Shown here: piece by piece, positions 7,643 through 16,048 of the stretch
Layout: each line of letters begins with the position of its first letter
How positions within the stretch are numbered: the first letter of the stretch is position 1
Assembly (NCBI RefSeq): GCF_018476525.1
Contig: NZ_JAHCST010000050.1
Coordinates: forward strand, 1 to 64,000
DNA: 64,000 nucleotides
Source: Acrocarpospora catenulata
GTDB lineage: Bacteria; Actinomycetota; Actinomycetes; Streptosporangiales; Streptosporangiaceae
Reading direction: 5' to 3'
The notes under the pieces: generated by a model
Databases searched by the model: none
What the model was told of the DNA's origin: nothing
The model's input: only the letters and a program-made list of their open reading frames with translations
Position numbers and translations under genes: made by a program

Positions 7643-9265
7643 TCAGGGAGAGGTGCAGGTGTAGGCGGACGGGGTGGCGGTGTTGCCGTTGGGGCGGCTG
7701 GCCTGGAAGCCGAAGCTGGTGTTCTGGCCGGCGCCCAGATTGCCGTTGTAGCCGAGGCTCTTGGCGGTTACAGTCTGGCCGCTGACCGTGAGGGTCGCAT
7801 TCCAGGAACCGGTAATGGTATGGCCGGCGGGCAGGGTGAAGGTGACCGTCCACCCGGTGATCGCGGAGGTTCCCGCGGTCACGGTGACCGGTTGCACGAC
7901 GTACCCGTCGCCCCACTGGGTCTGCACGGTGCCGGTCGCGGTGCAGGCGCCGCCGGTGCCGCCACCGGTGGTGGTGAAGGTCGCCAGCGAGGAGTTGCCG
8001 GACAGGTTCCCGGCGCCGTCACGCGCCCGGACGAACACCTGGTACTGCGTGTTGGCGGTCAGGCCGGTGAGGGTGACCGAGTTGGTGGTGGACGTGGCGA
8101 TCTGGGTGTCGGTCGTGCCCACCCGCCGGTAGACGTTGTAACCGGCCAGGCCCGAGCCGCCGCTGTCGGTGGAGGCGGTCCAGTTCAGGGTCGCGCCGGT
8201 GGAGGTCACGCCGGACACGGTCGGGGTGCCCGGAGTGGTCGGCGGGGTGGTGTCCACCGGCGGCGCGCTGGTGGTGAAGGTGGTCAGCGCCGAGTTGCCC
8301 GACAGGTTGCCCGCGCCGTCACGCGCCCGGACGAACACCTGGTACTGGGTGCTGGCCGTCAGCCCGGTCAGGGCGACCGAATTGGTGGTGGACTGGGTGA
8401 GCAGGGTGTCGGTGGTGCCCACCCGCCGGTAGACGTTGTAGCCCGCCAGGCCCGAGCCGCCGCTGTCGGTGGATGCCGTCCAGGTCAGGCTGGCCCCGGT
8501 GGAGGTGATGCTGGACGCGGCCGGGGTGCCCGGCGTGGTCGGCGGAGTGGTGTCCGTGGGGGTGCCGCTGAGCAGCGGGGTCAGCGACGGGTACCACTTG
8601 TCGGACATCTTCTGGTCGCCGGCCGCGTTCGGGTGGACGCCGTCGTAGGTGTCGGTGGTGGTGTTGAAGTTGGTCCACTGGTCCACCACGGTGATCGGCG
8701 AGGCCGCGGTGGTCTTGCCCGCCGCCCACGCGGGGATGGCGTTGTTGAAGTCGATCACCCGCTGCGGGCAGGCGGCGCAGGCGCTGGCCGCCATGGGGAT
8801 GATCTTCGCGACCAGGATCTTCATGTTCGGGTTGTTGGCCCGCATCTGGTCGACCAGCGTGCTGAAGGCGCTCAGGATGGTCGCCGGGGCGATGTTGCTC
8901 CACACGTCGTTGGTGCCGAAGTGCATGAGCACGATGTCGGGGTTGGTGGCCGACAGCCAGCCGGGCAGCTGGTTGGCGTTGGCGACGTTGGTGGCCAGGA
9001 AGCCGCCGTGGCCCTCGTTGTCGCCGTCGTAGGACACCCCGCAGCCCTGCGGGCCGAGCGTGCCGACGAAGTCGATGTTGGTGTAGCCGGTGCTCTGCAG
9101 CCGGTTCCACAGCAGCGCCCGCCAGCAGCCGGGCGAGCCGGTGATCGAGTCGCCCAGCGGCATGATGCGCACCGGCGCGGCCTGGGCGGGTCCCGTGACA
9201 CCGAAGACCACCGCCCCTACCATCGCCAGCACGATGGCGAGAAATGTTCTGAGTTTGTGGCGCAT
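7643..9265 (-). CDS. Secreted SGNH/GDSL hydrolase with two FnIII domains and CBM2
   Basis: An extracellular esterase of 540 residues, probably an acetyl-xylan or other polysaccharide deacetylase. The ATG at 9265 follows AGAGGAGAG. The signal peptide ends near residue 29 (GPAQAAP). SGNH blocks: GDSIT with nucleophile Ser40, GTND at 117-120, and DGVHPN with Asp208/His211. FnIII modules lie at about 240-325 and 335-425, and a CBM2 at about 435-540 with its terminal Cys pair. It ends in a strong hairpin terminator. The C-terminal half is closely related to that of the esterase at the left edge. Palindromes upstream (9435-9458) suggest control together with other plant-polymer hydrolases. Confidence 0.93.
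   Translation of the reverse strand: MRHKLRTFLAIVLAMVGAVVFGVTGPAQAAPVRIMPLGDSITGSPGCWRALLWNRLQSTGYTNIDFVGTLGPQGCGVSYDGDNEGHGGFLATNVANANQLPGWLSATNPDIVLMHFGTNDVWSNIAPATILSAFSTLVDQMRANNPNMKILVAKIIPMAASACAACPQRVIDFNNAIPAWAAGKTTAASPITVVDQWTNFNTTTDTYDGVHPNAAGDQKMSDKWYPSLTPLLSGTPTDTTPPTTPGTPAASSITSTGASLTWTASTDSGGSGLAGYNVYRRVGTTDTLLTQSTTNSVALTGLTASTQYQVFVRARDGAGNLSGNSALTTFTTSAPPVDTTPPTTPGTPTVSGVTSTGATLNWTASTDSGGSGLAGYNVYRRVGTTDTQIATSTTNSVTLTGLTANTQYQVFVRARDGAGNLSGNSSLATFTTTGGGTGGACTATGTVQTQWGDGYVVQPVTVTAGTSAITGWTVTFTLPAGHTITGSWNATLTVSGQTVTAKSLGYNGNLGAGQNTSFGFQASRPNGNTATPSAYTCTSP
7965..8560 (-). repeat. Two tandem FnIII-encoding repeats in the SGNH gene
   Basis: Units at about 7965-8250 and 8262-8560 encode FnIII modules matching those at 79-680, including long stretches of near-identical DNA. 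Four copies of the module therefore lie in two genes about 7 kb apart. Confidence 0.8.
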
Positions 9266-9434
9266 TCGCTCTCCTCTGATCGGGTCAAGCGATGCTAGGA
9301 GGCCACTGATCGCCTGAGCAGGCCACGGGCCGCCCAAAATCCGCTACCTGCGCTTTCCTGGATTCGGCAATGAAACATTCGCCATTTCGGCCCTGGACGC
9401 CCAGGCGCAAACCACCGGCCGAGACCTCCGCACA

Positions 9435-11603: not shown

Positions 11604-12707
11604 CTAGAACTGTGACGTGTACGTGACGAGCGACTGGCGGTCCACCTGCGTCGTCGTGCTGTAGCACACCACGTCCCGCACGACCGCCTGGCTTCCGGTG
11701 CTCAGCCAGAGCGTCAGCAGGTTGCAGTACTCGGGCCCCGGCCCGAACGCGGTCGCCTGCACGTGGTCACGGAGGATCCCCATCCGGGGGAAGATCACCA
11801 ACCGCATGCCGGGACCGGCCGTCTGCACGGTGTTCACCGCGCCCTGCGAGTTGTAGTTGATCCCCACCGGCACCGGCGCGTACGGACCCGGGTTGGCGGC
11901 GCTGACGTCGAAGGTGTAGGCGAAGTACTTCGGCGGGATGGCGGCTCCCGTGATCGCCCGTTCCCGCTGGTAGGTCAGGGACCAGCCGGTGTTGAACGGG
12001 TTGTTGACGGCGTCGTGGCACCGCACCTCGACCGTCTGCACGGCCGCCGCCGGGCTCCAGTTGCCCACCTTGCACCTGGCCGGGGCGGTGGGGTTGACGG
12101 CGGTCGCCTGGAGGCCGCCCGCCGGGGCCGGGGCGCCCAGGCCGGGGAAGGTCACCCGCCAGACGCCGAGGCCGAGCGGGACCACGGTGTTGACCGCGCC
12201 GACCGAGTTGTACTGGCTGACGATGGCGGCGCCGTTGTGGTGCACGTAGCCGAACGCGTGGGTGCCCGCGGGGAGCAGGCCGGTGCTCTCCTCGTACATG
12301 ACGGTGAACGGCACCCAGATGGGGGCGCCGCCGAAGCGGTAGCAGCGGACCGAGACCAGTTCGTCGGGCCCGACCGCGTTCCACTTCTCGGCCTGGCACC
12401 AGACCGGCTGGTTGGTCACGGCCGTCACGTGCACCACGCCGCCGGGCCCGCCGATCTGCGGGAAGCGCACGAACGTCTCCCCCGGTGCGCCGGGAGTCAC
12501 CGAGACGCTGAAGGCCGCCGGCCAACTGCCCGCCTGGTGGTTGGGGTCGGGCACCCCGGAGGGCACGTCGACGAAGGCGAAACCCCACCGGTTGGGTACG
12601 GCCGCCTGCGCCTGACCGCCCAGCGCGGTCAGGCCTGCCGCCGCCATCGCCAGCGACAGCACCGCGAGGAGAATCCGGCGCAGAGGTAATCGGATTGTCG
12701 TCACCAT
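11604..12707 (-). CDS. Secreted protein with three tandem domain repeats, unknown function
   Basis: 367 residues from the ATG at 12707, which has AAAGGGA 5 nt upstream. The signal peptide is cleaved near GGQAQA-AVP. The mature chain is three repeats of about 105-115 residues. Each has an aromatic opening (WGFAFV, HAFGYV, FAYTF), then V.FP..G, then ATA......C.....W and V.V.C, and ends with a Tyr-rich strand. One Cys pair per repeat suggests one disulfide per domain, i.e. three beta-sandwich-like units. SQYNSVGAVNTV and INYNSQGAVNTV mark repeats 2 and 3. I know no named family; surface or matrix binding is a guess. Confidence 0.8.
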   Translation of the reverse strand: MVTTIRLPLRRILLAVLSLAMAAAGLTALGGQAQAAVPNRWGFAFVDVPSGVPDPNHQAGSWPAAFSVSVTPGAPGETFVRFPQIGGPGGVVHVTAVTNQPVWCQAEKWNAVGPDELVSVRCYRFGGAPIWVPFTVMYEESTGLLPAGTHAFGYVHHNGAAIVSQYNSVGAVNTVVPLGLGVWRVTFPGLGAPAPAGGLQATAVNPTAPARCKVGNWSPAAAVQTVEVRCHDAVNNPFNTGWSLTYQRERAITGAAIPPKYFAYTFDVSAANPGPYAPVPVGINYNSQGAVNTVQTAGPGMRLVIFPRMGILRDHVQATAFGPGPEYCNLLTLWLSTGSQAVVRDVVCYSTTTQVDRQSLVTYTSQF

Positions 12708-12790
12708 AGTTCCCTTTCCCATCGGAAACGGCCACTGCGGCCCTTACACCCGTTCATAGGACGGAAATCTCACAACGAGAAGACTCAACT

Positions 12791-12859
12791 TTTGAACTCA
12801 CCTTCGAGTCACCGAAAAGCCGTCCTGTCAAGCCCATTTGAACTGCATATTCGAGTAAC
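12791..12859. promoter_or_regulatory. Direct repeat TTTGAACT-n4/5-TTCGAGT upstream of the NACHT gene
   Basis: TTTGAACT followed by TTCGAGT occurs at 12791 and again at 12837, 46 bp apart, with 4- and 5-nt spacers and AC shortly after each. The second copy continues into a perfect CGAGT-A-ACTCG palindrome (12852-12862). The repeat lies 50-118 bp before the NACHT start and looks like a double binding site; no cognate regulator is identified. Confidence 0.4.
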
Positions 12860-12908
12860 TCGGGAAAAGATCGGCGGATGCCACCCGCGAACGATTCATG
12901 GATAGGCC

Positions 12909-15900
12909 ATGATGAAGACCGTGGACCCTTCTGCCGTGGCCGGCGCCGTCGCGAAGTCGGTACTCAACCTCGCGGCCAAGCCGTTCATCACCAGGGCACA
13001 GAACCACCTGGCCCGACGCGGAAAACTCCGGACCAGCGATGTACGGCAGACGCTCTCCTTCATCCCCGGGCCGCACATCGGACAGTTGGTCACCCTGGGG
13101 CTGGTGGAGCATCTCCCGGCCGGGGTCACCTTCCACCAGGTACGCCAACTCCTGAACACGCCGGCCTTCAAGTCGACCGCGCAGAAGTACATCGCCCTGC
13201 ACCTGCACGGGGTCGCCGACGACCACCGGCCGCAGGTTTCCACGCTGCTGCGCGACCAGTTCAGCCGGGCGTTCCCGCACGCCGACCGAGGCGAGCTCCA
13301 CCGTTACGCGGTGCAGCTGGACACCGTGCTGGAGCAGTCCTGCGCCCAGGTGGCCGAGCAACTACGCGAACGGCTCACCGACCAGCGAGCCGGAATGGAC
13401 TGGGCGGGCGCGCTGCTGTCCCTGGACACGATCAGGGCCATCGAACACCACGTCGCCCTGCTCAGCACCCGCGAGAGCGACACCGGGGAGCAGCGCGAGA
13501 ACTGGCTGGAGGGCTACCGGAACCGGTTCGCCCAGGCACACGCCAAGATCCAGCTGCCCAACGTGGGCTTGCGTCGCGGGGTCGACCACGGCGACCTATA
13601 CGTCCGCCCCGACCTACTCTGGCACCTGAACGCCGCCGAGCCACAACTGGTCAGCGGCAAGGGGACATCGAGCTCGGCGGTCTTCCCGGACCTCAGCAGT
13701 CCGCCCTTGATCCACGGCGACCCGGGCGCCGGCAGGTCACTTGCCGCGTGGCAGCGCAGTGGTCCGCCCTTGGTCCTCGGGGACCCGGGCGCCGGCAAGT
13801 CAATCCTCGCGCGGCAACACGGCGGGGTGACACTCAGCTCGGCGGACTTCCTGGACCGCATCGACCGGTCGGTGATCCTCGGCGACCCTGGTGCGGGCAA
13901 GTCCACCGCCAGCGGACTGTTCGCGCTGCTCTGGCTGACCGAAGGGCGCGGGGTGCCCTTCCACCTGGTGCTCCGGCAGCTGCGGTTCGAGGAGTCCGGG
14001 TTCAACCTCGTCAGCGAGATCGAGCGGGTGCTGGCGACGACCTACCAGCATCCGCCGCCCGCCGGGCTGGTGGAGGAGTTGCTGCACGAAGGCTCTGCGT
14101 TGATCGTCTTCGACGGGTTGGACGAGTTGCTCTCCCCGGTCCAGCGAGAGCAGACCTGCCGCATCATCGAGACCGCCAGCGCGGCCTACCCCAGCGCTCA
14201 GATCCTGGCCACCTCCCGGCGCATCGGCTACGAGGCGGCCCGGCTGGCGCCGGAGGTGTTCCAGGAATACACCCTGTGGCCGTTCAACGAACGGCAGATC
14301 GCCGAGTACGTCGGGAACTGGATCCGGCTCGGCGAGCCCCAGCCCGAGGAGCAGGTGAAGCAGCGCGTCGACAAATTTATGGTGCAGAGCAAACCCATTT
14401 CCGACCTGCGCACAAATCCATTGATGCTGGCATTCATCTGTATGCTGATGGACGCCGAGCTGGAGATTCCGGGTAACCGATATCAGATTTACAGCAGCTG
14501 CGCCCATCTGCTGCTTGAACACTGGGACAGAATGCGGGAGCTGGCCAAAACCAATGTCGAGCGCCACTCCTACGAGGTGGCGCTGAGCGAAGTGGGATAT
14601 GTCTCGCTCCGGCGGCCGGAACCGGGGATGACTGAGGAGGAGGTCAAGGAGATCCTCGTCCGCAATTTCCTGGCCGAGTCCATGGCGGACCGAAACCGCG
14701 CCCGCGAGAGCGCGCACGCGCTGATCGAGCTGTGCCGAGGCCGAGCCTGGATGTTCACCGACATCGGCCGGGACCGGCTCCAGCGGGAGCTGTTCGACTT
14801 CACGCACAAGAGCTTCAGAGAGTACTTTGCGGCCCAGCACATGGCGCGACGCTCCGCGAGCCCTGCTGAGTTGGCCGACCAACTCGATGAGCTGATCGCC
14901 TCCTCCTCCAACGAAGTGCTGGTGCAGATCTGTCTCAGCGTGGCCGACCGCCAGTTCGTGGCGGGCTCCTCGGCGACGCTTCTCCAGCTCCTGCGCCGGC
15001 CGGAGATCGCGTCCTCGGACACGGCGCTGAACTGCCTGATCAAGGCCGCAGATGGGCTTCCGTTGGTTGAGGGGGCGCTAGCGGCGCTGGCGAAGGCCGT
15101 CGTCGAAGTCCACCCAACATCGTCGGTCTCCGGCGGCATGCTGCTGCCGCTCATGCGCGCCAAGTCACTTCACGAGTGCCTCCCTCTGATCGCCGCCGCA
15201 GTACAGCGTCGGGTCGAGCGCGAAGGCCCAGCAGCCATGACGCATCTGATCAAAGTCCCGGGTGTGTGGGAGTTGTGCGTGCGACATGGTGTGGTGGACT
15301 TCAGTCCGGATTCACGCTGGCCACACCCTTCGGTGAGCATGCTCGCACAGCGGCTGTTCGAAGGTGATCTGGACTTCTTGACCAGTACCCCCAACTCCAG
15401 CTTGGCTCTGTGGCTGTCGCGAGCCATGGCGGAGGAACCGCGCGATCCCGTCAGGACGAAAAGGGCACTGGCTCTGCTCGCATACGTGGGCAGGTCGACG
15501 GCGGAAATCTTCAGCCGAAGCTCGCTACCTGACAGCCCTGCAGACGACCTGACTCTAGAGATCAGCTGCCCGGAATCCCACAAACCAGCCCTTATCATCC
15601 CTCAGGCCGTGGTCGGTTTTCATGCGCTACAGACCGACCAGGCCGCTGGTTTGCTCGGCGCCGCACTCCGCCGATGCGCCGGGCACCGGCCGGACGTACA
15701 GGCGGGCATGTTGTTCGTGCTCATGGGCCACCTCGAACTGGCCCAGCGATACTTCTCCTCCCAAATCAGCCTGCTTCCGCCTGTTGCCACCGCACTGTCA
15801 CATGCGCGGCGAATCGGCAGAGTCGTCCAGCCGCTCCCCGGCTTGAACCGGCTTCCTCCCGCCAACCGGGAAGTCCTCGACCGCTGGATCGACGGCACAT

Positions 15901-15944
15901 TTTCGATCTTCGAGTTCCCCGAGGAGGGGACCGCCGTCTCCTGA
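12909..15944 (+). CDS. NACHT/STAND-family NTPase with three Walker A motifs
   Basis: 1011 residues. An N-terminal helical region of no known family (1-250) is followed by a NACHT-type NTPase: Walker A motifs at 270-277 (GDPGAGRS), 291-298 and 325-332 (both GDPGAGKS), Walker B LIVFDGLDE at 398-406, and sensor-like ATSRR near 434. A winged-helix-like part (FTHKSFREYFAAQHMA near 640) and an alpha-helical C-terminal sensor of about 350 residues follow; no WD40 or TPR is evident. Only the third P-loop sits at the normal distance from Walker B. Proteins of this class are signal-dependent switches, often antiphage. Codons become AT-richer around 14370-14600 and 15050-15800, suggesting acquisition. 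ATG at 12909 or 12912; the ribosome site is weak. Confidence 0.88.
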   Translation: MMKTVDPSAVAGAVAKSVLNLAAKPFITRAQNHLARRGKLRTSDVRQTLSFIPGPHIGQLVTLGLVEHLPAGVTFHQVRQLLNTPAFKSTAQKYIALHLHGVADDHRPQVSTLLRDQFSRAFPHADRGELHRYAVQLDTVLEQSCAQVAEQLRERLTDQRAGMDWAGALLSLDTIRAIEHHVALLSTRESDTGEQRENWLEGYRNRFAQAHAKIQLPNVGLRRGVDHGDLYVRPDLLWHLNAAEPQLVSGKGTSSSAVFPDLSSPPLIHGDPGAGRSLAAWQRSGPPLVLGDPGAGKSILARQHGGVTLSSADFLDRIDRSVILGDPGAGKSTASGLFALLWLTEGRGVPFHLVLRQLRFEESGFNLVSEIERVLATTYQHPPPAGLVEELLHEGSALIVFDGLDELLSPVQREQTCRIIETASAAYPSAQILATSRRIGYEAARLAPEVFQEYTLWPFNERQIAEYVGNWIRLGEPQPEEQVKQRVDKFMVQSKPISDLRTNPLMLAFICMLMDAELEIPGNRYQIYSSCAHLLLEHWDRMRELAKTNVERHSYEVALSEVGYVSLRRPEPGMTEEEVKEILVRNFLAESMADRNRARESAHALIELCRGRAWMFTDIGRDRLQRELFDFTHKSFREYFAAQHMARRSASPAELADQLDELIASSSNEVLVQICLSVADRQFVAGSSATLLQLLRRPEIASSDTALNCLIKAADGLPLVEGALAALAKAVVEVHPTSSVSGGMLLPLMRAKSLHECLPLIAAAVQRRVEREGPAAMTHLIKVPGVWELCVRHGVVDFSPDSRWPHPSVSMLAQRLFEGDLDFLTSTPNSSLALWLSRAMAEEPRDPVRTKRALALLAYVGRSTAEIFSRSSLPDSPADDLTLEISCPESHKPALIIPQAVVGFHALQTDQAAGLLGAALRRCAGHRPDVQAGMLFVLMGHLELAQRYFSSQISLLPPVATALSHARRIGRVVQPLPGLNRLPPANREVLDRWIDGTFSIFEFPEEGTAVS
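13698..13904 (+). repeat. P-loop-encoding tandem repeats inside the NACHT gene
   Basis: Walker A codons lie at 13716-13739, 13779-13802 and 13881-13904. The first two units are a 63-bp tandem duplication (about 47 of 60 bases identical by eye around each). The third shares the GDPGAG core and an upstream SSA.F.D pattern with the first. Reading frame is kept throughout. Confidence 0.85.
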
Positions 15945-16002
15945 CCATCGTTTGACCGCTCCGCCAACCCCTGGACGACGGATCACTCCGATGATCTGCT
16001 CA

Positions 16003-16016
16003 TGAGAGCGCTCCCA
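16003..16016. promoter_or_regulatory. CebR-like operator box
   Basis: TGAGAGCGCTCCCA differs at one base from the CebR box of Streptomyces (TGGGAGCGCTCCCA), a LacI-family cello-oligosaccharide operator. It ends 32 bp before the MFS gene start. Function is inferred from the match. Confidence 0.45.
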
Positions 16017-16048
16017 CTGATCGCCCAGCTGCCCGGAAGGACACCGCG

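Follow-up and report, generated by a model that had tools for sequence, protein, structure and literature searches.

A bacterial NACHT ATPase with three P-loop motifs and one Walker B: a rare-looking oddity better explained by an old, tolerated linker expansion than by a new mechanism

STAND proteins, as described in excerpts of PMC12169576, contain a NACHT part that switches with nucleotide and passes a signal from a C-terminal sensor to an N-terminal part. The same excerpts describe the NLR-related bNACHT antiphage proteins, which are encoded by a single gene and have a central NACHT domain (PF05729) with additional N- and C-terminal regions. The eukaryotic proteins NLRC4 and NLRP3 carry one Walker A motif (excerpts of PMC9633759); the lysine of this motif contacts the nucleotide phosphates, and its exchange for alanine in NLRP3 lowers turnover about threefold (same excerpts of PMC9633759). 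Short peptides with a single P-loop can bind phosphorylated ligands on strand-loop-helix scaffolds of ~40–60 residues, and P-loop prototypes, which are designed peptides, are based on short strand-(P-loop)-helix units, which may be present twice (excerpts of PMC10119929).

We analysed a 64,000-nucleotide stretch of the Acrocarpospora catenulata genome (the window), in which a first-pass annotation had reported a NACHT ATPase with three P-loop motifs at residues 270, 291 and 325 ahead of a single Walker B. These coordinates and counts hold (Table 1). Like the bNACHT proteins of the excerpted account, the encoded protein has a central PF05729 domain, additional regions at both ends and a single gene; unlike them, it carries three P-loop motifs instead of one. 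The statement that no NACHT protein with a tripled P-loop has been described agrees with a full-text search of open-licence papers, which returned no NACHT protein with tandem P-loops among the matches listed.

The frame contains no internal stop and a single NACHT domain (Pfam PF05729, residues 320–472; 45.2 bits versus a curated cut-off of 26.7), with Walker A (325–332) and Walker B (398–406) in an ATPase core modelled as strand-loop-helix. Foldseek returned NLRC4 (4kxf, E 1.2e-10) and NLRP3 chains as the best solved structures; they have the NACHT fold in common with the query at 12–14% identity in most rows and a query-normalised TM of ~0.2–0.3. With respect to the three-part layout of effector, NACHT and sensor, helical regions flank the NACHT domain on both sides in the model, and neither end belongs to a Pfam family (residues 1–250 have no Pfam match at E 0.1). 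From the usual STAND layout, the N-terminal region is presumed to be an effector or signalling part. Known defence models did not match, PADLOC returning 0 families at E 1 and NCBIfam EruA a partial match of 40.8 bits versus a cut-off of 1000, and an immune role is presumed. These features are best explained by a STAND/NACHT protein that is encoded by one gene, belongs to an actinobacterial subfamily and resembles bacterial immune NACHT proteins in build, with a helical N-terminal part, a variable linker, a NACHT ATPase and a helical C-terminal part. A decayed gene was ruled out: the 1011-residue frame is open, GC3 is 0.84, and Walker B, TSRR, NPLML and FTHKSFREYFAA are present.

Table 1 Features of the NACHT gene, in positions of the window
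Feature	Position	Strand	Remarks
NACHT (STAND) ATPase gene	12909..15944	+	1011 aa; end coordinate includes stop
Helical N-terminal region (presumed effector or signalling part), ~residues 1–236	12909..13616	+	model helices 7–211; no Pfam family
Block 1: linker segment and P-loop 1	13655..13738	+	62/84 identical to block 3
63-bp tandem repeat, 2 copies (13694–13762, 13757–13825)	13694..13825	+	54/69 identical
P-loop 1 GDPGAGRS, residues 270–277	13716..13739	+	Walker lysine replaced by arginine
P-loop 2 GDPGAGKS, residues 291–298	13779..13802	+	intact motif inside linker
Block 3: linker segment and working P-loop	13820..13903	+	partner of block 1, lag 165
P-loop 3 GDPGAGKS, residues 325–332	13881..13904	+	working Walker A; aligns with sole P-loop of 18/18 relatives; model strand 320–325, helix 331–344
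Walker B LIVFDGLDE, residues 398–406	14100..14126	+	sole Walker B

We aligned 18 relatives (8 from a plasmid record and genome contigs, 10 from genome searches), the closest being ~37–44% identical to the query. All 18 carry a P-loop at position 3, once as GHPGAGKS, and none carries one at position 1 or 2, so that the tandem loops are not conserved in any aligned relative; a separate alignment, whose 14 relatives include 11 of the 18, agrees. The full-length relatives L044 (Streptomyces, '[Kitasatospora] papulosa' plasmid), L047 (Streptomyces), L045 (Lentzea), L046 and L050 (Amycolatopsis), L048 (Saccharothrix, a MAG) and L049 (Umezawaea) align with the query over the N-terminal region, the linker, the NACHT domain and part of the C-terminal region at ~29–44% identity (BLAST), but have one P-loop, a linker of 26–41 residues and no tandem repeat. 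The linker that joins the helical N-domain to NACHT, counted from a conserved YV-P site up to the loop, has 90 residues here versus 24–42 in 14 relatives and 35, 41, 33 and 60 in the remaining four. A ~55-residue (165-bp) expansion of this linker harbours loops 1 and 2, and subtraction of 55 residues leaves 35, comparable to the 24–42 found in 17 of 18 relatives. The linker of the Lentzea relative resembles the left part of block 1. The 60-residue linker belongs to a distant Amycolatopsis relative (L051), contains much alanine and many charged residues, and has no second P-loop; the linker can thus expand without P-loop copies. The first-pass annotation had named absence of the extra loops from homologues, combined with decay of the protein, as grounds for rejecting its proposal; half of this applies, in that the loops are absent from every homologue examined but the protein itself is not decayed.

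Wider searches extended this comparison. A P-loop motif is present in 109 of 112 relative-like ORFs, 3 of the 109 being the query itself; two nearby motifs occur in none of the 106 non-query ORFs (some redundant), and in three a second match lies 394–685 residues off. With two candidates scored per genome, a family-wide search matched 29 of 341 genomes at E 1e-25, the query's own included, and a class-wide search of 394 genomes gave no other match at E 1e-70. When the 83-residue insert was used as query, with 13–16 candidates scored per genome and a sensitivity too low for strongly diverged tandem loops, matches came from 2 of 338 family genomes, namely its own and L111, where the match is a single P-loop and not a tandem; the corresponding search of 396 phylum genomes matched 1, its own, and thus gave no second tandem case. 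A first scan of contigs gave no relative and a second, with a two-row alignment, 60 loci; viral contigs yielded 151 pattern matches and no relative, and phages one weak match. Since no relative closer than ~37–44% identity was found, these comparisons do not directly bracket the age of the duplication.

The AlphaFold2 model, calculated with 19 alignment rows (mean pLDDT 70.2, pTM 0.57), places loop 3 confidently between strand 320–325 and helix 331–344 (pLDDT ~82–89). Residues 243–303 have pLDDT below 50, which in a stretch that lacks aligned relatives is weak evidence of disorder, and no strand; loop 2 is followed by a low-confidence helix (295–303) and loop 1 by just three helical residues. 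In the model, the strand-loop-helix fold is not formed around each loop, loops 1 and 2 being predicted without strands. A single-sequence model of residues 249–473 was uninformative (mean pLDDT 45.8). Together, the 18 of 18 relatives and the AlphaFold2 model bear out the earlier proposal that only the third loop is placed for the fold. The only amino-acid change in the three P-loop cores is the lysine-to-arginine exchange in loop 1, and it hits the Walker lysine. Exchange of this lysine for arginine is usually disabling.

At the DNA level, the three motifs start in frame with spacings of 63, 102 and 165 bp, all of which are repeat lags and multiples of three. Identity amounts to 54/69 bases (0.78) at lag 63, 62/84 (0.74) at lag 165 and 26/31 (0.84) at lag 102, where it covers the P-loop alone. 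The 63-bp in-frame tandem duplication of the first two loops reported in the first pass is thus real, though imperfect; the account was incomplete in that copy 1 also repeats the block of copy 3 at lag 165 and no longer has the Walker lysine. Masking of the P-loop codons leaves 42/60 matches at lag 165, and the highest value among 60 shuffles of the gene's codons is 36; judged by these comparisons, DNA repeats, and not just shared codons, connect the three motifs. The lag-165 similarity sits in the linker part (30/39 bases) and in the core (19/24). Directly beside the core it falls to 12/21 bases before and 7/18 after, indistinguishable from other P-loops, and a 102-bp unit is for this reason deduced from the spacing. 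Ranked by score over lags of 20–399 across the whole window, the lag-63 and lag-165 repeats come third and fourth, below two 300-bp repeats, of which the one that was checked is fn3; Tandem Repeats Finder at its default score lists neither the lag-63 nor the lag-165 repeat.

The window contains further repeats. A secreted-looking GDSL esterase (7643–9337, reverse strand) has two fn3 domains and a CBM2, the fn3 domains forming a 300-bp tandem repeat with 87% matches; a second tandem repeat of 303 bp with 83% matches (70–676) is similar to the fn3 repeat at 7969–8555. The 372-residue secreted-looking protein encoded at 11604–12722 (reverse strand) has no Pfam family, shows an internal repeat of lag 357 bp near 11779 and is conserved in all four sister genomes.

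Two tandem duplications, one nested in the other, of ~102 bp and then 63 bp, are consistent with the DNA; their order and unit size are themselves deduced. In a first step, a ~102-bp block comprising the P-loop and a portion of the linker would have been duplicated in frame; in a second, the 63-bp repeat would have arisen inside the new copy, so that the linker would have become longer by ~165 bp (~55 residues) in this lineage. As the copies are only 74–78% identical, these duplications are not recent. The first-pass suggestion of a recent and harmless replication accident therefore survives with regard to the duplication and its tolerance, both of which are favoured here, and fails with regard to recency: the copies differ at 22–26% of sites. 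As a rough guide, this divergence falls about within the between-species range of the left flank, which has 68–73% identity to the four sister genomes in long matches (27–32% divergence, part of it coding), and a recent duplication was ruled out.

The gene itself also appears old at this locus. The same flanking genes are 337–453 bp apart in all four sister genomes of the genus versus 3326 bp here (12723–16048; L122, 305–461), and the NACHT gene is missing between them in all four. One sister genome (G001) retains a decayed remnant of the 5' end of the gene (local score 43.0 versus a best of 19.0 in 100 shuffles), G002 a short 5' remnant (26.5 versus 16.5) and G004 a marginal one (25.5 versus 24.5), and none was found in G003 (13.0 versus 17.5); some of the matched sequence precedes the ATG. 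The decayed remnant in G001 indicates that the gene is old at the locus and was lost in the sisters, and most likely, judging from these alignments, it was present in the ancestor of the genus or at least before the split from G001. A fresh insertion of a single gene, considered on the basis of the flank spacing, was dropped in favour of loss in the sisters, given the remnants in G001 and G002. The remnants end before the linker and so do not date the duplications. Comparison of the window with eight relative loci revealed no conserved neighbour or partner gene; the matches beyond the gene itself came from overlapping ORFs in that region.

We consider it probable that the arrangement stems from old in-frame duplications, with loop 3 working and the spare loops representing a tolerated expansion of the linker. 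Loop 3, seated in the ATPase fold, would bind nucleotide together with Walker B 398–406, and the NACHT part would switch with nucleotide, relaying to the N-terminal part a signal received by the C-terminal sensor. Loops 1 (lysine to arginine) and 2, in a flexible tether that lacks the core strand and the rest of the fold, would be passengers that lengthen the tether with little or no effect, and would thus be nearly neutral.

Evidence on the other side comes from the codons of the spare motifs. Counted as identical/synonymous/changed, the core gives 3/4/1 versus 8/0/12 in the flank for copies 1 and 3 (Fisher p 0.038), 6/1/1 versus 4/2/8 for copies 1 and 2 (p 0.074) and 3/5/0 versus 1/0/3 for copies 2 and 3 (p 0.018), in three tests that share data, with silent changes that may lie on the side of copy 3, which is constrained anyway, and flanks that may evolve faster than neutral. 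In a neutral simulation with flank-calibrated distances, both motifs were kept as well as observed in 0.0006–0.00075 of runs, rising to 0.0015–0.00225 with favourable branch lengths; the choice of the site on account of its intact motifs biases these values. On these counts, the spare motifs are better preserved than their flanks, which counts against pure neutrality and keeps alive a reading, unlikely in our estimate, in which the tandem loops are a functional module that has been kept: loop 2 would weakly bind ATP, ADP or polyphosphate, or act as a pseudo-ligand that docks on the NACHT site, and so tune activation, and loop 1 would be its inactivated twin. In addition to the outlasting of the flanks in three comparisons and the simulation, this reading draws on the full consensus of two of three loops despite 22–26% divergence and on the binding of phosphorylated ligands by short one-P-loop peptides (excerpts of PMC10119929). 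Those peptides, however, also carry strand-loop-helix scaffolds of ~40–60 residues and, like the prototypes, are set apart from the query, whose pieces belong to a natural linker for which neither a strand nor a full helix is predicted. Against it stand, further, the lack of a confidently modelled structure near loops 1 and 2, the absence of the tandem from all relatives examined, which makes it a single case, the missing Walker lysine of loop 1, and the fact that motif retention is the very reason for which the site was picked. We likewise regard as unlikely the wider version, in which an NLR-like immune ATPase would have retained P-loop seeds, arrayed naturally in tandem within its linker, as a switch sensing nucleotide or phosphate, with one loop silenced and more than one phosphate-binding element per chain. 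The earlier proposals of decoys or tuners of nucleotide binding find no direct support here.

An origin by illegitimate recombination, in which the spare P-loop piece would be a graft donated by a different P-loop ATPase gene and not a copy of the gene's own loop, is improbable to a similar degree. In the surroundings of the core, the best matches of copies 1 and 2 to P-loops of other NACHT genes (39 and 44 of 62) slightly exceed their matches to copy 3 (37 and 36 of 62), and the best other match in the genome itself is a second NACHT gene (80% over 58 bases, E 1.2e-6). Such matches are ordinary, however, as 78 of 87 P-loop windows have a best flank match of at least 23/38, and the linker segment before loop 1 repeats that before loop 3 (30/39 bases) at equal distance from the core. 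Copies 1 and 2 agree with each other at 27/38 flank bases, where the best of 87 other P-loop windows reaches 18 with copy 1 and 23 with copy 2. An assembly or sequencing artefact is very improbable even in a draft genome of 181 contigs, since an assembly error would give near-identical copies, and these differ at 22–26% of sites within a frame that stays open across the 165 bp.

The three P-loops thus represent a true, rare-looking oddity that an old and tolerated linker expansion explains better than a new mechanism would. The gene is a clean test case either way, because one lysine change and one removal of 165 bp separate the readings. If the spare loops are functional, they would be a natural counterpart of P-loop peptides made by design, and an NLR-like switch would be tuned in a new way. 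If they are neutral, they show how much the linker before a NACHT domain tolerates, and that motif searches can miscount active sites in such proteins, where the P-loop that fits the fold should be chosen and not the first match.
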